Shown here piece after piece: positions 1,916-53,430 of a stretch of DNA of 64,000 bases. A model generated the notes under the pieces. It worked only from the letters and a program-made list of their open reading frames with translations. It was not told the DNA's origin and did no database searches. Source of the stretch: Candidatus Rokuibacteriota bacterium (GTDB taxonomy: Bacteria > Methylomirabilota > Methylomirabilia > Rokubacteriales > CSP1-6); NCBI GenBank assembly GCA_003221695.1, contig QHSX01000038.1:186001-250000 (forward strand), written 5' to 3'. Within the stretch, counting starts at the first letter, position 1; each line of letters starts with the position of its first letter. The position numbers and the translations under genes are program-made.

Positions 1916-3520
1916 ATGGCGAGCTGGTCGCTGCTCATCCGGAACGGCTCGGTCGTTGACGGGACGGGCGGGCCCGCGCGACGGGTGGACGTCGCCGTGG
2001 AGGGTGACCGTGTCGCCGCCGTCGACGCCGGGCTCCGGGGCGACGCGCACCGGGTGATCGACGCCGCGGGCCACGTCGTGGCGCCGGGCTTCATCGACGC
2101 GCATTCGCATTCCGATCTCTTCTATTTCGGCTGCCCGTCGTCCGAGTCGAAGATCCGCCAGGGCTGCACGACCGAAGTCGTCGGCATGTGTTCGTTCTCT
2201 CAGGCGCCGATCGCACCCGGGAGGGAAGACGCCGTACGCGGCTGGGCGGGAGGGATCGGCGCGAGCCTCGACTTTCGCTGGGAGACCTTTGGCGAGTACC
2301 TCGACGCGCTTCGCGCCGTGCGGCCGTCGATCAACGTCGTCCACTTCGTGGGTCACGGCGCGCTGCGGCTCGCGGCGGTCGGCTCGGAGAACCGTGCGCT
2401 CTCGACGGACGATCTGAAGGCGATGGAGCGGCGCCTCGACGAGGCGATGGACGCGGGCGCGTACGGCTACTCGACCGGGCTCGTCTATCCGCCGAGCGCC
2501 TACGCCACGACCGAGGAGCTGGTCCTCCTGGCGCGCTCGATGGCCCGGCGCGGTGGGCTCTACTTCTCGCACGTCCGCGGCGAGAGCGCGATGGTCGAGG
2601 ACTCGATCCGCGAGGCCATCCGTATTGGCGAGGAGGCAGGCGTCGGCGTCCAGATCGCCCACGTGAAGGTGGGCGGGCGCGAGAACTGGGGAAAGATGGA
2701 CGGCGTGCTCCGGCTGATCGACGACGCCCGAGCGCGCGGAGTCGACGTCAGCGGCGACGTCTATCCCTATCACGCCGGCAGTACCAAGATGGACAACCTG
2801 CTGCCCGCCTGGGTCCACGACGGCGGGCTTGCCAAGCTGCTCGAGCGGCTCGGCGACCGCACGACGCGGCGGCGCATCGTCGAGGAGTGCCTGGTGGACG
2901 GCGAGCGCTGGCTCACCCTGTCCGCGGGCTCCCTCGGCTTCGACGAGATCTGGATCGCGACGTGCCGCCAGCGCGAGCTGGAGGGCCTGACGCTCGCGGC
3001 GCTCGCGCGGCAGACGGGCAAGACTCCGGCCGAGGCGATGATGGATCTGCTCCGGGAGGAGCGCGCGACGGTCGGGATGGTCGCGTTCTCTCAGGACCTC
3101 ACGAACGTCGCCAAGGTGCTGCGCCATCCGGCCATCATGATCGGCTCGGACTCGATCGGGCTCTCCGAGGGGACGGGACCGAAGCACGGCAAGCCGCACC
3201 CGCGTATGTACGGGACCTTTCCGCGGGTGCTCGGCGAGTACGCGCGCGAGCAGAAGCTCTTCGCGCTCGAGACGGCGGTCCACAAGATGACCGGCATGCC
3301 GGCCGCGCGGCTCGGGCTCTCCGACCGCGGGCTCGTCCGCGAGGGGTGCGCGGCGGACCTCGTGGTCTTTGACCCGCGGACGGTGAGGGACGAGGCGACG
3401 TTCGCCGAGCCTCACCGATACCCCACCGGGATCCCTTACGTGATCGTCAACGGTGACGTGCTGGTCGACGCGGGGCGCTTCCGCGCGGCGGGTGGTGGCC
3501 GCGTGCTCACCCCGCGATGA
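1916..3520 (+). CDS. D-aminoacylase / N-acyl-D-amino-acid deacylase-type amidohydrolase
   Basis: 534 aa, cytoplasmic. It begins with the beta-sandwich LLIRNGSVVDGTGGPARRVD typical of the family, then the metal-binding HxH in GFIDAHSHSDLFYF. Further family blocks are TTEVVGMCSFSQAP, the QIAHVKVGGRENWGKM segment (bridging/ligand His), PYHAGSTKM, and the SDSIGLSEGTGPKHGKPHPR block carrying the late catalytic Asp. It closes with the C-terminal sandwich ADLVVFDPRTV. Family members hydrolyse N-acyl-D-amino acids, dihydropyrimidines or related amides. The exact substrate cannot be told. The start 3 nt after the cyclophilin stop and the aldehyde dehydrogenase downstream suggest a catabolic operon. 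Confidence 0.88.
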   Translation: MASWSLLIRNGSVVDGTGGPARRVDVAVEGDRVAAVDAGLRGDAHRVIDAAGHVVAPGFIDAHSHSDLFYFGCPSSESKIRQGCTTEVVGMCSFSQAPIAPGREDAVRGWAGGIGASLDFRWETFGEYLDALRAVRPSINVVHFVGHGALRLAAVGSENRALSTDDLKAMERRLDEAMDAGAYGYSTGLVYPPSAYATTEELVLLARSMARRGGLYFSHVRGESAMVEDSIREAIRIGEEAGVGVQIAHVKVGGRENWGKMDGVLRLIDDARARGVDVSGDVYPYHAGSTKMDNLLPAWVHDGGLAKLLERLGDRTTRRRIVEECLVDGERWLTLSAGSLGFDEIWIATCRQRELEGLTLAALARQTGKTPAEAMMDLLREERATVGMVAFSQDLTNVAKVLRHPAIMIGSDSIGLSEGTGPKHGKPHPRMYGTFPRVLGEYAREQKLFALETAVHKMTGMPAARLGLSDRGLVREGCAADLVVFDPRTVRDEATFAEPHRYPTGIPYVIVNGDVLVDAGRFRAAGGGRVLTPR

Positions 3521-17551: not shown

Positions 17552-18886
17552 TCAACGCCGCGCGAGCCGCTCGAGCCCCGCCGCGTCGGCCGCCGCGCTG
17601 CGCAGCGCCTTCGAGCCGAGCTTCATGTGATGGGCGCGGCCGAGCTTCTCCTTCGTGAAATCCACCGCGAAGACCTGTTTGAGCCCCTTGCCGTCCCACC
17701 TGAAGCCGCGCAGGAACTGCTCGTTGTCCGCACCGACCTTGTCCCAGTTCGCCAGCAAAGACGAGGTGATGTAGACGCGCTTGCCGTCCCAGCTCTGCGA
17801 GATCATGTTGACCTGTTTGCCGGTGACCTTCGCGTAGGTCTGCTTGGGCGCTTCCGGGTTGCTCAGATCGAAGTAGCGCGTGGTGCCGTCCATGAACGTG
17901 TTGACCCACAGCCCCTTGCCGTCACGGGTGATGCTGATGTCGACGGGCAGCGGGACCTTCGCTGGATCGCCGATCGTCGCCACATCCTTCGCCTGCCACT
18001 CCCCCTTGCCGTCCTGCTTGAGGAGCCAGATCTTGGACGTGAGCGCGGTCGCGGTCACGGCCCAGTTGTGCCCGGGGTTGAGCGACCAGCGGATCTCCAG
18101 CGGCGCGCCGGGCACACTGAGAATCTTCTTCGGCTTGATGGCCTTCAGGTCCCACACGACCATGGTGTTACCGAAGCGCTTCATCGCCTCCGCGTCCTTC
18201 ACGAGGTCCCAGAGCGACCGCATGTAGTTCGTGTAGCCGGTGAAGCTCGACGTGAGCAGCACGTTCTTCTTCGGGTTGACCGCGAGATCGTAGCCGTAGC
18301 CGTCGCCGCCGCCGTCGGTCGGCATCTTGTAGGTGGCGATGAACTCGCCCTTGTTGTTGTAGAGCGCCATGCCGGTAACGCCGCTCTTGTCTTGGGTGTT
18401 CGAGAGCGCCTGCACCAGCATCCGTCCGGGGAGGGCATAGTAGGTGTGTGGGCCGAGGTAGCCGGTCTTGTCGGCCAGGTCGGCGATCGTCTGAACGAGC
18501 TTGGGCTTCGCCGGGTCGGTGGCGATGTCGAAGACGTAGATCTTGGCCTCCGAGAGCCCGCCCGCCCAGATGAAGCGCCGGTCGTCGGTGAAGCCCATGT
18601 GGTGAGCCTCGCCTCGGGATCCGACCGACACGGAAGCGATCACCTTCCCGTAGCTCTTCGACTTCGGGTGCACGTCCACGGTCACCAGCTTGTCGGAGCC
18701 GTCGCCGAGCCCCTCGACGCCCAGGGCCCACACGTAGACGTAGTCTTCCTGACCCTTGATGAGCTTGGCGGTGTAGGGCGAGTTGCAGGTCTCGTCGGCG
18801 CGGACCGGGCCGGCGTCGACCGTGCACATCAGGGCGACCCAGAGAGCCGCCAGAATGCCCGAACGCATCATGCGATGAGAGATCAT
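17552..18886 (-). CDS. mtoX: SBP56-family methanethiol oxidase (periplasmic)
   Basis: 444 aa from the ATG at 18886 (SD GGAAGGAGAG). A signal peptide of about 30 residues ends GPVRADE. The mature protein is a seven-bladed propeller of the selenium-binding protein 56 family: TCNSPYTAKLIKGQEDYVYV, VTVDVHPKSKSYGKVIASV, RGEAHHMGF, LGPHTYYALPGRMLVQALSN, GYDLAVNPKKNVLLTSSFTG, WSLNPGHNWAV and a closing RAHHMKLGS. Bacterial members oxidise methanethiol to formaldehyde, H2S and H2O2 using copper. No TGA/Sec is present in this protein. With the SCO gene it forms a two-gene operon reading away from 19124. Confidence 0.87.
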   Translation of the reverse strand: MISHRMMRSGILAALWVALMCTVDAGPVRADETCNSPYTAKLIKGQEDYVYVWALGVEGLGDGSDKLVTVDVHPKSKSYGKVIASVSVGSRGEAHHMGFTDDRRFIWAGGLSEAKIYVFDIATDPAKPKLVQTIADLADKTGYLGPHTYYALPGRMLVQALSNTQDKSGVTGMALYNNKGEFIATYKMPTDGGGDGYGYDLAVNPKKNVLLTSSFTGYTNYMRSLWDLVKDAEAMKRFGNTMVVWDLKAIKPKKILSVPGAPLEIRWSLNPGHNWAVTATALTSKIWLLKQDGKGEWQAKDVATIGDPAKVPLPVDISITRDGKGLWVNTFMDGTTRYFDLSNPEAPKQTYAKVTGKQVNMISQSWDGKRVYITSSLLANWDKVGADNEQFLRGFRWDGKGLKQVFAVDFTKEKLGRAHHMKLGSKALRSAAADAAGLERLARR

Positions 18887-46570: not shown

Positions 46571-47644
46571 TTACAACACCCCGAGCAGCCTCTCGTCCGT
46601 CTCGCGGAGGCCCAGCGAGATCCGGAGGTGGCCGGGGAAGCCCACGCCGGCGCCGTCCCGCACGAGGAGACCCGCGCGGAGGAGCTTGTCCCTGAGGGCC
46701 GCCGCGTCGGGGACCTTCACGAGCAGGAAGTTCGCCTGGGACGGCGGGAAGGCGTACCCGCGCTTCCGCAAGCCCGCCGAGACGAACGCGCGCTCCTCGA
46801 GGACGAGGCGTCGGGTCTGTTCCCGGTGCTCCCCGTCCTCGAGCGCCGCGAGCGCCGCCGCCTGGCCCAGGCGGTTGACGTTGTAGGGCGCGCGCACGCG
46901 GTTCAGGCGATCGCACGTCTCCGCGGTCGCCACCGTGTAACCCACGCGGAGCCCCGCGAGCCCCGCGATCTTCGAGAAGGTCCGCAGCACGATCAGGCGC
47001 GGATAGCGCGCGAGGAGGCCGACGCCGTCGGGATACTCCGGATCGTCCGCGAAGTCGCAGTAGGCCTCGTCGAGGAGGACGAGCGGCGGGTCGGCGCCGA
47101 GCGCGTCGAGGAAGGCGAGAAGCGGCGCCTTCTTGATGATCGTCCCCGCCGGATTGTGCGGCGAGCAGAGGATCACGGCCTTCGTCCGCCCGGTGACCTT
47201 CCGGCGCATGTCGTCGAGGTCGGTCTCGTACCCGGCGAGCGGGCTCGCGACGACCCGCGCGCCCGCGAGGATGGCCGAGGTCGCGTACGGCTCGAAGGAG
47301 GGCTCGGGGACGACGACCTCGTCGCCACGCTCGAACGCCGCGAGCGCCACGAGCGCGATCAGCTCGTCGGCGCCGTTGCCGACGACGAGCTGCTCGGGCG
47401 CGACGCCGAGCCGCTGGGCGAGGGCCTCACGCAGCGCGAGGGCGCCACCGTCGGGGTAGAGGTGCACGCGCGTCGCCTCGTGCGCGATCGCGGCGACGAC
47501 GCGAGGCGAGGGTCCGAGGGGGTTCTCGTTCGCCGACAGGCGCACGAGCTCCGGCAGGCCGAGCTCCGCCGCGAGCCGCTCGAGGGGCTTCCCCGCGTCG
47601 TACGGGGTCATCCCGTCGAGGACGGCGCGCCAGACGTTCCTCAC
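46571..47644 (-). CDS. hisC: Histidinol-phosphate aminotransferase
   Basis: 357 aa from a GTG at 47644, fold-type I PLP enzyme. Blocks: VRLSANENPLGPSPRVVAAI, VVGNGADELIALVALAAF, VVLLDEAYCDFADDPEYP-like (PLP-contact Asp/Tyr), RTFSKIAGLAGLRVGYTVA (Schiff-base Lys) and GFPGHLRISLGLRETDERL (substrate-carboxylate Arg). It transfers an amino group between histidinol phosphate and 2-oxoglutarate in histidine synthesis, sometimes also acting on aromatic amino acids. No other his gene is near. The start has TAGAAT 6 nt upstream. Confidence 0.92.
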   Translation of the reverse strand: MRNVWRAVLDGMTPYDAGKPLERLAAELGLPELVRLSANENPLGPSPRVVAAIAHEATRVHLYPDGGALALREALAQRLGVAPEQLVVGNGADELIALVALAAFERGDEVVVPEPSFEPYATSAILAGARVVASPLAGYETDLDDMRRKVTGRTKAVILCSPHNPAGTIIKKAPLLAFLDALGADPPLVLLDEAYCDFADDPEYPDGVGLLARYPRLIVLRTFSKIAGLAGLRVGYTVATAETCDRLNRVRAPYNVNRLGQAAALAALEDGEHREQTRRLVLEERAFVSAGLRKRGYAFPPSQANFLLVKVPDAAALRDKLLRAGLLVRDGAGVGFPGHLRISLGLRETDERLLGVL

Positions 47645-47650
47645 GGCCCC

Positions 47651-47656
47651 ATTCTA
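47651..47656 (-). promoter_or_regulatory. -10 box TAGAAT of hisC
   Basis: On the minus strand TAGAAT ends 6 nt before the hisC GTG. A 17-nt spacer places a weak -35 on the same hexamer (47674-47679) that serves glnD in the other direction. Confidence 0.5.
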
Positions 47657-47673
47657 GTAAGTCTGCGTCGGAT

Positions 47674-47703
47674 TTGACAGTCTTCGTTCCCGGTTGCTAC
47701 GCT
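47674..47703 (+). promoter_or_regulatory. glnD: Promoter of glnD
   Basis: TTGACA (47674-47679), 18-nt spacer, TACGCT (47698-47703). The ATG at 47713 is 9 nt on, so the message is leaderless or nearly so. An in-frame TTG at 47674 is the -35 itself and is rejected as a start. Confidence 0.65.
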
Positions 47704-47712
47704 CTGGCCGTC

Positions 47713-50391
47713 ATGTCCGTCGAGCTGTATCGCCGGGCCCGGCGTGCAGAGGCCAGAGCGCCGCGCGCGCCCGAGCGGCGGCGCCTTCGCCTCGAGTTTT
47801 TCCGTCAGGCCCTTGCCGAGGGATACGACGCGCTCAAGGTGCGTCACGCCGAGGGCGCGTCGGGCCAGGAGTCCGTCCGCACCCACGCGCGGCTGATGGA
47901 CGACGTGATCTTCTCGCTCACGCGCCTCATCGCCGCCGACGCGGTCGGCGACGGCCTCGAGGCGACGCCGCTGGTCGTCATCGCGCTCGGCGGCTACGGC
48001 CGGGGGGAGCTCCACCCGCTCTCGGATGTCGACCTCATGGTCATTTACGGCGACGTGATGTCGCCGTACGTGCAGCGGATGATGCAGGAGCTGCTCTACT
48101 CCCTCTGGGACCTCGGGCTCCACGTCGGCCACAGCCTCCGCTCGCTCGACGACTGCGTCGCGATGGCGCACACGGACTTTCCGAGCCGCACGTCCATGCA
48201 GGAGGCGCGCTTCCTCGCGGGCGAGCGGCGCCTGTTCGCGCGCTTCCAGCGGGTGCTGCGCGAGAACGTTTTCAGCCGTGACTTCGGCCAGTTCCTCGAG
48301 ACGACCCTGGTGGAACGCGACGCGCGCTACCGCAAGCACGGCGCGTCCCCGTACATCGGCGAGCCGAACGTCAAGGAGTCGGCGGGTGGCCTGCGCGACA
48401 TGCACACGGCCATGTGGCTCGGCGAGGCGAAGTTCGGCGCCCGCACGCTGCGCGAGCTCGCCGACAAGGGGCTCATCACGCCGCGCGAGCAGGCGGCGGC
48501 GGATGGCGCGCTGACGTTCCTCTGGCGCGTGCGCAACGAGCTCCACTTCTTCTCGGGCCATAAGAACGACGTCCTCACGCGCGACCTCCAGCCTCGGATC
48601 GCCAAGAACCTCGGTTACGAGAACGACGAGACGTCGCTCGGCGTCGAGCGCTTCATGCGCGACTACTATCTGCACGCGCGGGTCATCCACCGGGTGTCGA
48701 AGCGGCTCATCGCGCGCTGCCAGGAGACGCTCTCGCGTCGCGGCTCCGCCGAGCGGCGCCAGCGGCAGCAGGCCCTCGCGGACGGGCTCGTGTTCTTCGA
48801 CGGCCGGCTCCACCTCGCCGACCGCGACCCCTCGCAGCTCCGGACGGATCCGGCCCGTCTCATGAAGGTGTTCTGGCACCTGCACCGGCTGGGCTGCGAG
48901 CTGGCGCTCGATCTCGAGCGAGCGGTGGAGGACTCGCTCCACCTCGTCGACGACGCGTTCCGCCGGGCGGACGCGGTCCGGGAGCTCTTCCTGGACGTCT
49001 GCCGGACGTGGGGCCGCGCGGCCCAGACGTTCTCGGAGATGCACGAGCTGGGGCTCCTCGGCCGCTATCTGCCCGAGTTCGGCGCGCTGACGTGCCTGGT
49101 GCAGTACGACGCCTACCACAAGTTCTCCGCGGATCAGCACTCGTTGTTGGCCGTCGAGCACCTCGAGGCGCTGGCGCCCGGCCAGTCGGCGGAGTCGGAG
49201 GGGGCCGCGCACGTCCTCAGCGAGGTGGAGAAGCCCGAACTCCTGATGCTGGGGATGCTGCTCCACGACATCGGCAAGGCGAAGGGGCACGGCCATGTCG
49301 CCAAGGGCATCCCGCTGGTGCGCGAGCTGACCGCGCGCCTGGGGCTCCCGGCCGCCGACGCGGCCGTCGTCGAGTTCCTCGTGGCGCACCACCTGACAAT
49401 GTCGCACGTCGCCCAGCGGCGCGACATCGACGACCCGCGGACGGTCACCGACTTCGCCGCCGCCGTCAGCGACCCGTCGCGGTTGCGCATGCTCTACCTC
49501 CTGACCTATGCCGACATGCGCGCCGTCGGCCCCGGCGTCCTCACGCCCTGGCAGGCGCGAATCCTGCACGAGCTCTACACCCGGACGCTCGCCGCCCTCA
49601 CCGGCGGCCGCGTGGCGAAGCCGAGCCGGACGAAGCTCGCGGAGCGGCTGCACGCGGCGGCGAAGCGCGAGGTGGACCTCCAGGCCGTGAAGGCGCACCT
49701 CGCGATGATGGCCGACCGCTACCTCGAGTCCACGAGCGTGCAACGGATGGCCGAGCACTTGCGGCTGCTCGGCGGCCTCGGCGAGACGCCGGTGGTGACC
49801 GCGCTGTTCCAGCATCCCGACCTCGGGTCCTCCGACCTCGTGGTCGTCACGCGCGACCTGCCCGGCCTCTTCTCGCTGATCGCGGGTACACTCGCGGCGA
49901 GCGACGTCAACATCATCTCGGCGCAGATCCACACGCGCGCGGACGGCATTGCGATCGACACCTTCCAGGTGAACGACCCGGTGGGCGAGGTGATCGGCTC
50001 GCCCGCCCGCTGGGCGCGCCCGCTCGAAGCGCTCCGCGCCGTGCTCACCGGCGAGCAGACCGTGCCCGCGCTCCTCGCCCGGCGTCGCGCCGCGGGACGC
50101 GAGGCGACGGGCCCTGGTGGCCCGCCGAAGATCGCCCTCGACAACCAGCTCTCGGACACCGCCACGGTGATCGAGGTGAAGTGCCCGGACCGGCTCGGTC
50201 TGCTCTACCTCATCACGCGGACGCTCGCCGGGCTCGGGCTCGACATCGTGAGCGCGCGGATCGCGACCGAGATCGACCAGGCGTTCGACACGTTTTACGT
50301 GCAGGACCACGAGGGGCGGAAGATCGAGGATCCGGAGACGCTCGAGCGCGCCCGCGAGGCGCTCGAGCAGGCGCTCGGGCAGTCGATCTGA
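47713..50391 (+). CDS. glnD: [Protein-PII] uridylyltransferase / uridylyl-removing enzyme
   Basis: 892 aa, four-domain GlnD. Nucleotidyltransferase motif GGYGRGELHPLSDVDLMVIY lies at about 93-112. The GlnE/GlnD-type helical region follows (VKESAGGLRDMHTAMWLGEA). The HD phosphohydrolase has FSADQHSLLAVEHLEAL and MLLHDIGKAKGHGHVAKG. Two ACT domains near the end read VVTRDLPGLFSLIAGTLAAS and EVKCPDRLGLLYLITRTLAG. It adds UMP to PII under nitrogen limitation and removes it when glutamine is high. All domains are complete. The downstream fusion gene starts 2 nt after the stop. Confidence 0.95.
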   Translation: MSVELYRRARRAEARAPRAPERRRLRLEFFRQALAEGYDALKVRHAEGASGQESVRTHARLMDDVIFSLTRLIAADAVGDGLEATPLVVIALGGYGRGELHPLSDVDLMVIYGDVMSPYVQRMMQELLYSLWDLGLHVGHSLRSLDDCVAMAHTDFPSRTSMQEARFLAGERRLFARFQRVLRENVFSRDFGQFLETTLVERDARYRKHGASPYIGEPNVKESAGGLRDMHTAMWLGEAKFGARTLRELADKGLITPREQAAADGALTFLWRVRNELHFFSGHKNDVLTRDLQPRIAKNLGYENDETSLGVERFMRDYYLHARVIHRVSKRLIARCQETLSRRGSAERRQRQQALADGLVFFDGRLHLADRDPSQLRTDPARLMKVFWHLHRLGCELALDLERAVEDSLHLVDDAFRRADAVRELFLDVCRTWGRAAQTFSEMHELGLLGRYLPEFGALTCLVQYDAYHKFSADQHSLLAVEHLEALAPGQSAESEGAAHVLSEVEKPELLMLGMLLHDIGKAKGHGHVAKGIPLVRELTARLGLPAADAAVVEFLVAHHLTMSHVAQRRDIDDPRTVTDFAAAVSDPSRLRMLYLLTYADMRAVGPGVLTPWQARILHELYTRTLAALTGGRVAKPSRTKLAERLHAAAKREVDLQAVKAHLAMMADRYLESTSVQRMAEHLRLLGGLGETPVVTALFQHPDLGSSDLVVVTRDLPGLFSLIAGTLAASDVNIISAQIHTRADGIAIDTFQVNDPVGEVIGSPARWARPLEALRAVLTGEQTVPALLARRRAAGREATGPGGPPKIALDNQLSDTATVIEVKCPDRLGLLYLITRTLAGLGLDIVSARIATEIDQAFDTFYVQDHEGRKIEDPETLERAREALEQALGQSI

Positions 50392-50393
50392 CG

Positions 50394-53000
50394 ATGCTGG
50401 GGCGCTACCGCGAGCGCGTCCGCGCGTGGACCGACCCGGTGGGCCGCGCCCTGTTCCGGCTGCACCTGCGCCCCAACCATCTCACCGTCATCGGTCTCGG
50501 CGTGAGCTTCCTGGCCGCGAGCGCGTTCTCCGCGGGTCGGACGCGTGCGGCCGGGCTTCTCCTGATCGTTGCCGGGCTCTGCGACTTCTTCGACGGCGCG
50601 CTCGCCCGCGTGTCGGGCCGCGTGACGCCGTTCGGCGCCTTCCTCGACTCGGTCATCGACCGCTACTCGGATCTGCTCGTCCTGCTCGGCATCGTCGTGT
50701 TTTTCGCCCGGATGCCTCACGCGCGCGGGGCGATCGTCGCGATGTCGGGCCTGATCGGCTCGATGATGGTGAGCTACACGAAGGCCCGCGCCGAGTCGAT
50801 CGGCGTCACGTGCACGGTGGGGATGATGGAGCGCCCCGAGCGCATGATCTGCCTCATCGCCGGCGCGCTCCTCGGCCTCCTCGAGCCCGCGCTCTGGGTC
50901 CTCACGATCCTGTCGAACCTGACCGCCCTCCAGCGGATCCTCTTCACGCTGCGGGCGACGCGCTCCATGCCGGCGCTGCGCGCGGTCGTCCTCGGCGCGC
51001 TGTTCCTGGCGCCGGCCGCGGCCGGCGCCGGGCCGGCGCGCGCCCGCCCGGCGATCGCGCCCGGGACCGAGCGCGCGTGGGCGGACGCGGTCCTCGCCTA
51101 CCAGCAGGGCGAGCCCGGCCCGCTCATCCGCGAGTTCGCGACCGAGACCGCGCGGGAGGGCCCGATCGGCGACCACGTCCGCTACCTCCTCGCGCAGGCC
51201 CAGGCCCAGACGGGCGATTTCGACGGCGCGCGGGCGACGGCGGCGAGCGTCGCCGAGCGCTACCGCTCGAGCCGCCTGGCGCCGCGCGCGCTCCTCTTGG
51301 CCACGACGTTCGCCCTCCGAGTGGGCGACGACGCGCAGGCCCAGACCCTGCTCGGGCGGCTCGTGGACCGATACCCGGACGGGCCCGAGCTGCCCGAGGC
51401 GCTCTACCTCCTCGGGATGTCGGCCGAGGCGCGCGGTCAGCGGGAGCTGGCGGCGCGCACGTACCGTGAGCTCCGCGTCCTGCTCCCGGCGAGCGACTAC
51501 GCTGACGGCGCCGCCGATCGGCTCGCGGCGCTCGAGGCGGCGGGCGTGACCGTGGCGCCGCTCGCGCTCGAGGAGCGGCTGGATCGCGCGGAGCGGCTCG
51601 TCCGCGGCGGCGTGGCGCAGACCGCGATCGACGAGGCCGAGCGGATCGCGACCGAGACGCGCGAGTCCGTGATCGCGCTCCGCGCGCTCCGCGTCGTCGC
51701 CGACGGCGCGCGGAAGCTCGGCCGGTACGAGGCCGCCGCACGCACCCTCGCCGAGGCCGTGACGCACGCGCCCGCGGCCGAGCGGCCCGCGCTCCAGCTC
51801 GAGCGCGGCAAGCTCCTCGTGCGCGCCGGCCAGCCCCAGAAGGCGCTCGTCGCGCTCGACGGAGCGGTGACGGGCGGGGACGCGGACGTCGCCGAGGCGC
51901 TCTACCAGCGCGCGCGCATCCTCGACGACCTCGACCGCCGCGCCGAGGCGGCGACCGCCTACCGCGCCGTGATCGCACGCTACCCGTCGCGCGAGGTCGG
52001 CGCCGCGTCGCTCTGGCGGTTGGGCTGGCTCGCGTGGCTGGCGGGTGACGCGCGCGGCGCGGCGGGGGAGTGGACGCGCCTCACCGAGCCCGGGGTGGAC
52101 CGTGGCTACCGGATCGTGGCGCTCTACTGGGCCGGGCGCGCCCGCGCCCAGCAGGGTGACGGAGCTGTCGCGGAGCAGTTGTTCACCCAGGTGCTCGCCG
52201 AGGTGCCGCGCAGCTACTATGGCGAGCTCGCCGCGGCCCGGCTCCCCGAGCGGCAGGTCGCGGGCGTCAAGGGGCGGGTGACGCTGCCGGACGAGCCGTC
52301 GCAGGCCGTCGCGGCCGATGCCGGCTTCGCGCGGGTCGAATTGCTGCGGCGGATCGGCCTCCTCGAGGACGCGGTCGCTGAGCTGGAGGACCTCGCGGAG
52401 CGCGCGACGGGCGACCCGGTGCGCCTCTACGGGATCTCGAGCGCCTACGTGAAGGAGGAGCGGTACCACCTCGCGCTTCGGATCTTCCGCCGCTCCCTCG
52501 CTCCGCTCGCGGCGACGGGCGATCCCGCGCTGCCCCAGGCGTTCTGGGAGACGTTTTACCCGTTGGGGTGGCGTGCGGAGCTGACGGCGGCCGCCCAGAG
52601 CGCCGGGCTCGATCCCTACCTCGTCGCCGCCGTCGTGCGGGAGGAGTCGAGCTACTACCCGCGCGCCCTCTCGCCCGTGGGCGCCCGCGGCCTCATGCAG
52701 CTCATGCCGGACACGATGCCGATGAAGGGCGCGCGCGCGGACCATCTCGACGATCCCGCGCAGAACCTCCGGCTTGGCGCGCGCTTTCTCGCCGCGCTCC
52801 TGCGGGAGTTCGGCGACCCGCGTGTGGCGGTCGCCGCCTACAACGCCGGGCCGAAGCGCGTGCGTCAGTGGTGGACCGGCCGGCGCACGGACGACCTCGA
52901 GGCGTGGGTGGAGTTGATCCCGTACGACGAGACGCGCCACTTCGTGAAGCGGGTCGTGCTCTCCTGGACCGAGTACCGGCGAATCTACGGCGGTCGCTGA
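50394..53000 (+). CDS. In-frame fusion: CDP-alcohol phosphatidyltransferase and Slt-type lytic transglycosylase
   Basis: 868 aa from the ATG at 50394. Residues 1-190 are a polytopic CDP-alcohol phosphotransferase with the full DxxDGxxARx8GxxxDxxxD motif (D64, D67, G68, A71-R72, G81, D85, D89) and the segment ARAESIGVTCTVGMMERPER of phosphatidylinositol-phosphate/PgsA-like enzymes. Residues 192-212 look like a signal peptide, then a long superhelical TPR-like region covers about 220-710. The catalytic SLT domain has VVREESSYYPRALSPVGARG, LMQLMP and VAVAAYNAGPKRVRQWW. No stop separates the halves; an internal ATG at 50967 could start the second alone. The pair links phospholipid head-group transfer and murein cleavage. 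Confidence 0.8.
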   Translation: MLGRYRERVRAWTDPVGRALFRLHLRPNHLTVIGLGVSFLAASAFSAGRTRAAGLLLIVAGLCDFFDGALARVSGRVTPFGAFLDSVIDRYSDLLVLLGIVVFFARMPHARGAIVAMSGLIGSMMVSYTKARAESIGVTCTVGMMERPERMICLIAGALLGLLEPALWVLTILSNLTALQRILFTLRATRSMPALRAVVLGALFLAPAAAGAGPARARPAIAPGTERAWADAVLAYQQGEPGPLIREFATETAREGPIGDHVRYLLAQAQAQTGDFDGARATAASVAERYRSSRLAPRALLLATTFALRVGDDAQAQTLLGRLVDRYPDGPELPEALYLLGMSAEARGQRELAARTYRELRVLLPASDYADGAADRLAALEAAGVTVAPLALEERLDRAERLVRGGVAQTAIDEAERIATETRESVIALRALRVVADGARKLGRYEAAARTLAEAVTHAPAAERPALQLERGKLLVRAGQPQKALVALDGAVTGGDADVAEALYQRARILDDLDRRAEAATAYRAVIARYPSREVGAASLWRLGWLAWLAGDARGAAGEWTRLTEPGVDRGYRIVALYWAGRARAQQGDGAVAEQLFTQVLAEVPRSYYGELAAARLPERQVAGVKGRVTLPDEPSQAVAADAGFARVELLRRIGLLEDAVAELEDLAERATGDPVRLYGISSAYVKEERYHLALRIFRRSLAPLAATGDPALPQAFWETFYPLGWRAELTAAAQSAGLDPYLVAAVVREESSYYPRALSPVGARGLMQLMPDTMPMKGARADHLDDPAQNLRLGARFLAALLREFGDPRVAVAAYNAGPKRVRQWWTGRRTDDLEAWVELIPYDETRHFVKRVVLSWTEYRRIYGGR

Positions 53001-53004
53001 GCGT

Positions 53005-53430
53005 CTAGCGCGGCGCCGGTGCGCGCGCGGCGACCGCGGCCAGCGGCGCGAGCGGCGCGAGCTGCGCGAGCCGGTCGGCGAGCGGGGGCTCGGTCGCGAG
53101 GAGCCCGCCCGTCGCGGGGCCGTTCGCGGCCGCCGCGGCGGAGAGGGCGGCCGCGAGCGTCCGCCGCGGCGCCCCGTGGCCCATCGCGCGCAGGATCGCC
53201 GTGGCCCGGGCATCGGCGGCGAGCGCCTGCTCGCGGGTGAACGCGCGGACGACCAGCGGGTTGACCAGGAGGTCGAGCAGCCCGAGCCCGGGGACGGCGA
53301 TGCCGACGGCGACGAAGCCGGCCGTGACCGAGAGTGAGAGCGTGCGGCGTTGCCCCGCGTGGCCGAGGACCTCGTGCGCTACCTTCTGTGCGACGAGCGC
53401 GTCGATGGTGGGCTGGGGCTGCCGCGCCGC
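53005..53430 (-). pseudogene. Degenerate M48-type metalloprotease remnant
   Basis: The minus frame from 53430 to the TAG at 53005-53007 is open for 141 codons but has no usable start; a TGA lies directly upstream at 53431-53433. The translation looks like the C-terminal part of an M48 peptidase: ALVAQKVAHEVLGHAGQRRT (HEVLGH, so HExxxH in place of HExxH), then hydrophobic segments, then FTREQALAADARATAILRAM where active enzymes have R-E-x-E-A-D. The end, GGLLATEPPLADRLAQL, parallels the family THPP block. The N-terminus is lost and metal ligands are altered, so it is most likely a dead gene. Confidence 0.5.

Follow-up and report, generated by a model that had tools for sequence, protein, structure and literature searches.

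Introduction

FbcH of Bradyrhizobium is made as one precursor, which signal peptidase cuts to yield cytochrome b and cytochrome c1. Enzymes of the CDP-alcohol phosphotransferase family keep their C-terminus in the cytoplasm. In one of these, the PIP synthase MtPIPS, S132, K135, P153, R155 and R195 are assigned roles in the inositol-phosphate pocket in PMC4634129.

Here we describe a gene of Candidatus Rokubacteria (Methylomirabilota), uncultured bacteria of soil and groundwater, in which a CDP-alcohol phosphotransferase (PTase) resembling PIP synthases runs into a lytic transglycosylase (LT) of the Slt70 type. The gene lies in a window of 64,000 nucleotides, the whole stretch of DNA that was analysed, from a genome of 4.6 Mb in 109 contigs (G000). 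What is new is the pairing; the enzymes and the kind of arrangement were already known. A literature search limited to open-licence PMC articles found no paper on a PTase-LT fusion, nor one on such a fusion when Rokubacteria and LT were searched together. The search also returned PMC12419801, which was set aside since it deals with another superfamily.

Results

One reading frame encodes two envelope enzymes

A single stop-free frame on the forward strand (50394-53000) encodes 868 amino acids followed by a TGA stop, as established from the ORF list, its translation and the comparison of relatives. Directly 5' of it on the same strand lies glnD, encoding PII uridylyltransferase (47674-50391; Pfam GlnD_UR_UTase, HD and ACT), with a gap of 2 bases between the glnD stop and the PTase ATG. 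Pfam matches in the 868-aa product were CDP-OH_P_transf at residues 26-172 (8.9e-16), TPR repeats, and SLT at residues 732-832 (1.9e-25). The first-pass annotation had described a PTase with a complete motif that continues without a stop into a helix, a TPR-like superhelix and an intact SLT domain, and the frame, the Pfam matches and the motifs all agree with that description.

ORF length is no evidence in this region: because of the very high G+C content, antisense ORFs on the reverse strand reach 889 aa opposite glnD (47641-50310) and 972 aa opposite the fusion (50295-53213). A 59-aa ORF on the reverse strand (53005-53184) ends beside the stop of the fusion, and its letters may resemble the end of a membrane peptidase.

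The phosphotransferase half resembles PIP synthases

The PTase domain (50469-50909, + strand) was matched by Pfam PF01066, by NCBIfam models below their cut-offs and by PDB entry 5d92, and resembles the PIP/archaetidylinositol-phosphate-synthase type. Its signature D64xxD67G68xxA71R72...G81xxxD85xxxD89 (50583-50660, +) is whole in translation and alignment. Across 54 PTase loci, D64, D67 and G68 were kept in 54/54, and D85 and D89 in 53/54 with 1 gap. The residues that align with MtPIPS S132, K135, P153, R155 and R195 are S127, K130, P148, R150 and R181. S127 was present in 53 of the 54 loci (1 gap), position 130 was Lys in 47 and Arg in 6, and P148 was found in 49. Both pocket arginines, Arg150 (50841-50843, +) and Arg181 (50934-50936, +), were kept in 52/54 loci, with 2 gaps each; Arg181 lies about 10 residues ahead of the joint between the two halves.

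By sequence the PTase lay nearest to PIP synthases (PDB 5d92, RsPIPS; E 9.6e-23). NF040950, the model for archaetidylinositol phosphate synthase, gave 173.5 bits, under its cut-off of 180, and NF045883 gave 140.1 bits, under its cut-off of 170. Inositol-1-phosphate synthase (PF01658) was found in 56/57 genomes of the family, which suggests that Rokubacteria make inositol lipids or solutes. The window's own genome has 2 copies of the domain, in inositol-1-phosphate synthase-type genes on contigs C14 (38466-38792) and C107 (571-885). The CDP-AP enzyme encoded near the inositol-1-phosphate synthase, at a distance of about 2-3 kb, is in several genomes another paralog and not the fused PTase (for example, the pair at 3116 and 5393 on C181 of G054, at 3160 and 5320 on C134 of G055, and at 18208 and 20211 on C215 of G047). 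Since both NCBIfam cut-offs were missed and this other paralog is the one near the synthase, we class the fused PTase only as PIPS-like, with inositol phosphate as a candidate acceptor.

The transglycosylase half is a full-length Slt70-type enzyme

The LT half comprises a TPR-like alpha-superhelix from residue 223 to about 720 (51060-52553, +), recognized by Pfam TPR families, the structure model and the Slt/Slt70 fold match, and an SLT catalytic domain at residues 732-832 (52587-52889, +; PF01464). The SLT motifs are whole: a catalytic-type Glu751-Ser752 pair, GLMQ at 766 and AYNAG at 815. Glu751 (52644-52646, +) is the predicted catalytic acid; its counterpart in P. aeruginosa Slt is the Glu of the QES motif, and it was E in 48 of 50 aligned rows, the other 2 having a gap. 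The catalytic part matched that of Slt by sequence with E 6.9e-24. SLT proteins were encoded at 7 further places in the source genome, so the fused LT is not its sole LT.

A structure model was built from 29 aligned sequences (22 fused proteins and 7 outside PTases) and reached a mean pLDDT of 84.7. Six PTase helices extended up to residue 188. Two short weak helices (193-204 and 206-209) came next, ahead of the superhelix and the SLT domain, and confidence was low at 191-196 and 205-217. The PTase half superimposed on M. tuberculosis PgsA1/PIPS (6h5a) with Z 18.2 and rmsd 3.8 over 186 residues, and other PIPS structures were matched too. The LT half matched P. aeruginosa Slt (5ohu; Z 22.3, rmsd 8.0, 577 residues) and E. 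coli Slt70 (1qte; Z 19.4, rmsd 7.4, 579 residues), and Foldseek gave the same Slt/Slt70 fold match. Residue 1 of the solved Slt70, which we take to be the mature N-terminus, aligned with model residue 219.

The open joint is conserved throughout one clade

An open frame alone is weak evidence at such a G+C content: 7317 of 10854 off-frame 45-codon windows within the same ORFs (67%) were also free of stops. Conservation was therefore the deciding test. PTase orthologs (E <= 1e-20) were found at 54 loci among 95 genomes of the phylum, and the DNA around all 54, the window included, was compared. glnD lay directly 5' of the PTase at every one. By state of the joint, the loci comprised 33 fused, 16 split, one each for G017, G038 and G054, and 2 in which a contig ended (G033 and G093).

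In the fused clade (n=35) the joint was open and in frame in 34 members, namely the 33 whole joints and G017. The 33 joints had 15 different codon lengths and yet kept the frame; two of these copies (G011 and G008) run into a contig end after 628 and 718 aa, respectively. The 16 split relatives were organized differently: their PTase frame stops 193-201 codons after its start (at about codon 194-202) and is followed by an LT with an N-terminal signal peptide of its own. This agrees with the earlier remark that a natural stop expected near residue 190 is absent from the window's gene. The LT began a few to about 130 bases past the PTase stop in 15/16 split loci and about 1.4 kb past it in G034. 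In G054 no LT was found within 5 kb of the PTase, and at locus L068 the LT sits further on past the PTase.

Identity among the 33 fused copies was 69-98% in the PTase and 49-91% in the LT. LT identity as low as 49% makes the fusion too old for recency alone to explain the open joint. The frame at 50394-53000 is a genuine conserved gene fusion and not an assembly slip. The same fusion, which the first-pass annotation had proposed to seek in related genomes, was thus found across the clade; its refuting case, orthologs consistently split by a stop, did not hold inside the clade and was the state of the sister and outgroup lineages.

Several loci had features of their own. G038 (L095) has the sole broken joint of the clade: a 19-nt gap just past the helix, seen against the two relatives closest to it, shifts the LT out of frame, through either an assembly error or real LT loss. 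In G017 (L137) about 70 residues are missing within the PTase, where the frame is also lost; the joint and the LT are each open and in frame. In G010 (L092) and G017 a long Pro-rich linker joins helix 7 to the LT. The full fusion also occurs on a contig titled Myxococcales bacterium nzgw250 (L042; JAHFDS010000356.1), with 82% identity to the window, close to values within the window's own genus; most likely this is a Rokubacteria contig that was wrongly binned or named.

Outside Rokubacteria, 16 PTase-only loci (L069-L084) showed neither glnD nor LT in the available flanks, some of which are short; L072 is without downstream flank. These 16 were part of 46 loci from a genome-contig scan in which close relatives only were detectable.

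The fusion arose once

Trees were built for glnD and for PTase plus LT from rows with about half of the columns filled (51/54 and 50/54 loci, respectively). G038 and G017 were labelled fused by hand, and in the glnD tree G033, G093 (both contig ends) and G054 were labelled split by default. In both trees a branch with SH-aLRT 100 separated the fused loci from the others, and the state changed once. Two genes were present, wherever the joint was visible, in the nearest split group (G031-G033) and in the order-level outgroups (G092 and G094). It follows that the two-gene state is ancestral and that fusion happened once; both trees are consistent with one event at the clade's base. The stop codon of the PIP-synthase-like PTase would have been lost, so that the frame was read into the next gene, that of a secreted Slt70-type LT. 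In G031 the LT lies in the same frame as the PTase, past its stop, a picture of the pre-fusion state.

The joining helix resembles a signal peptide

At the joint, the PTase active-site residues, which extend to Arg181, are followed by a basic tail (...QRIxFTxRATRD..LLR), a hydrophobic run of 12-25 residues, an Ala-rich end and a variable hydrophilic linker. In the window's protein the run corresponds to a short hydrophobic helix at residues 193-209 (50970-51020, +; pLDDT about 50 in the model), which we regard as the probable former signal peptide of the LT. Helix hydrophobicity did not differ between fused proteins and the signal peptides of the 16 split relatives (p = 0.65 for the core and 0.41 for the 19-mer), and the hydrophobic, uncharged run was shorter in the fused proteins (median 18 vs 21.5 residues; p = 0.019). 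By its sequence the helix looks like a former signal peptide rather than a lengthened anchor, and cleavage after export is therefore favoured.

The region past the helix was examined in an alignment of 32/33 fused joints, from which G010 was left out for its long linker. The last Ala column was Ala in 23/28 rows, compared with 12/28 in the column before it and 18/28 two before, and Pro stood five columns ahead of it in 23/32. When the cut was placed at the hydropathy boundary instead, position -1 was Ala in 24/33 joints. From column conservation, the likeliest signal peptidase I cut would be Ala-Gly-Ala212/Gly213 (51027-51032, +), scoring being not decisive; Ala210/Gly211 is an alternative candidate. 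The proposed cut would fall just upstream of the start of the solved Slt70, since that aligns with residue 219.

Cleavage scoring gave mixed results. An unsupervised motif search of signal peptides from the same genome yielded no cleavage motif, and joints did not score above TM helices (p = 0.92). The analysis was then rerun with a starting matrix that followed the signal peptidase (-3,-1) rule and was trained on signal-peptide candidates, of which 0.8 Mb of that genome supplied 64. The c-regions of the joints now scored about as well as its signal peptides (difference p = 0.20) and higher than internal TM helices (n=66; p = 2e-9). They had no advantage over the same segment with its residues shuffled (p = 0.39), owing to its high Ala content. 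The helix thus has a signal-peptide-like composition, and the exact cut site is a candidate.

A cleaved precursor is the favoured explanation

Because no stop closes the PTase frame, the PTase is made only within the long chain, barring a frame shift or recoding. In the reading that we favour, and consider somewhat probable, a fusion of single origin produces one precursor that signal peptidase I cuts into two enzymes, the PTase in the membrane and the LT in the periplasm. The old signal peptide would form a seventh hydrophobic helix within the precursor and, if the PTase follows the topology of its family and ends in the cytoplasm, would lead the polypeptide from there across the membrane into the periplasm. 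Signal peptidase I would most likely cut past this helix and release a soluble Slt70-like LT, and the PTase, with the used helix still attached at its end, would presumably remain in the membrane. The consequence would be a fixed 1:1 synthesis and membrane delivery of two enzymes rather than one double-headed machine. The end products would equal those of the split relatives, which would explain why the fusion was tolerated and kept.

Permanent physical coupling is possible and ranks second, although we think it rather unlikely. Here the seventh helix would be an anchor tethering the LT to the PTase, so that murein is cut beside lipid head-group transfer. The uninterrupted frame in 34/35 clade members suits this arrangement, as do the shuffled-segment result and the Pro-rich linkers of G010 and G017, which are such as a tether might have. 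The 19-mer hydrophobicity of the joining helix, 1.78 against 1.03-1.83 in the six PTase helices, is also enough for it to span the membrane and stay as an anchor. However, it is not longer than the signal peptides of split relatives, and the model gives it just 12 to 17 residues at low confidence. The last Ala ahead of the hydrophilic stretch is, moreover, the most conserved position locally, whereas the one preceding it varies.

An internal start could instead give two products from one frame, the full-length protein and a separate LT, as had been suggested from the ATG at 50967. This codon (50967-50969, +; residue 192) exists, continues into a signal-peptide-like stretch and was kept in 4/4 members of the window's genus; it occurred nowhere else. 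Some ATG, GTG or TTG lay between residue 179 and the hydrophobic core in 18/33 fused copies, at differing places, but 15/33 had none. A separate LT start is therefore not conserved, and an internal start was rejected as a conserved device: the suggestion stood for the codon itself and failed for a second start shared across the clade. The internal start codons of the fused copies were not preceded by any SD-like sequence, although the search is uninformative here since the PTase start itself had an SD-like string in 2/33 copies against a background of 12% of random positions. Production of two proteins in this way is improbable.

Loss of the stop through a sequencing or assembly error, the missed stop or frameshift that the first-pass annotation had wished to see checked, is very improbable: the assemblies are drafts throughout, most of the named ones are MAGs by their titles, and G038 and G017 look broken, but 34/35 clade members from many assemblies concur and their joints vary in length while keeping frame.

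Discussion

At this locus two unrelated envelope enzymes have come to be encoded by a single gene, a clear natural example for which sister lineages still show the ancestral, unfused state. The fusion step can be read directly: one stop was lost between tightly spaced genes, with a signal peptide presumably rescuing export. Annotation pipelines that assign the 868-aa product one function or one compartment would be misled.

If the precursor is cut, as we favour, this would be a bacterial polyprotein-type gene outside the respiratory complexes. If the chain stayed uncut, lipid and murein metabolism would be linked in one molecule: throughout the clade, a lipid head-group synthase of seven helices would reach into the periplasm with an arm that cuts murein, tying inner-membrane phospholipid synthesis to wall opening at the same spot.

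Each half has close counterparts among known enzymes. The PTase shares the whole six-helix domain and the CDP-AP signature with PIP synthases (RsPIPS, 5d92; MtPIPS/PgsA1, 6h53 and 6h5a) and with NF040950, and it shares with bacterial PIP synthases the Ser, Lys and Pro residues, both pocket arginines and the fold (Z about 18). It differs from PIP synthases in its C-terminal extension and in scoring just below the NCBIfam cut-offs. The LT matches Slt70-type enzymes (E. coli 1qte and 1sly, P. aeruginosa Slt 5ohu, Neisseria LtgA 5o2n) over the full length of superhelix and SLT domain with Z 19-22, and its catalytic motifs are intact. In contrast to these enzymes it is synthesized at the C-terminal end of a membrane enzyme, and its score against the equivalog for E. 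coli-type Slt, 96.9 bits, is far below the cut-off of 536.

For the arrangement as a whole the comparison is with FbcH. The proteins are unrelated, and the halves of FbcH belong to one complex whereas PTase and LT have no known shared pathway. Both genes nevertheless combine a polytopic membrane enzyme, an in-frame internal signal peptide, which in the PTase-LT gene is a signal-peptide-like helix, and a periplasmic domain, in that gene the secreted-type LT.
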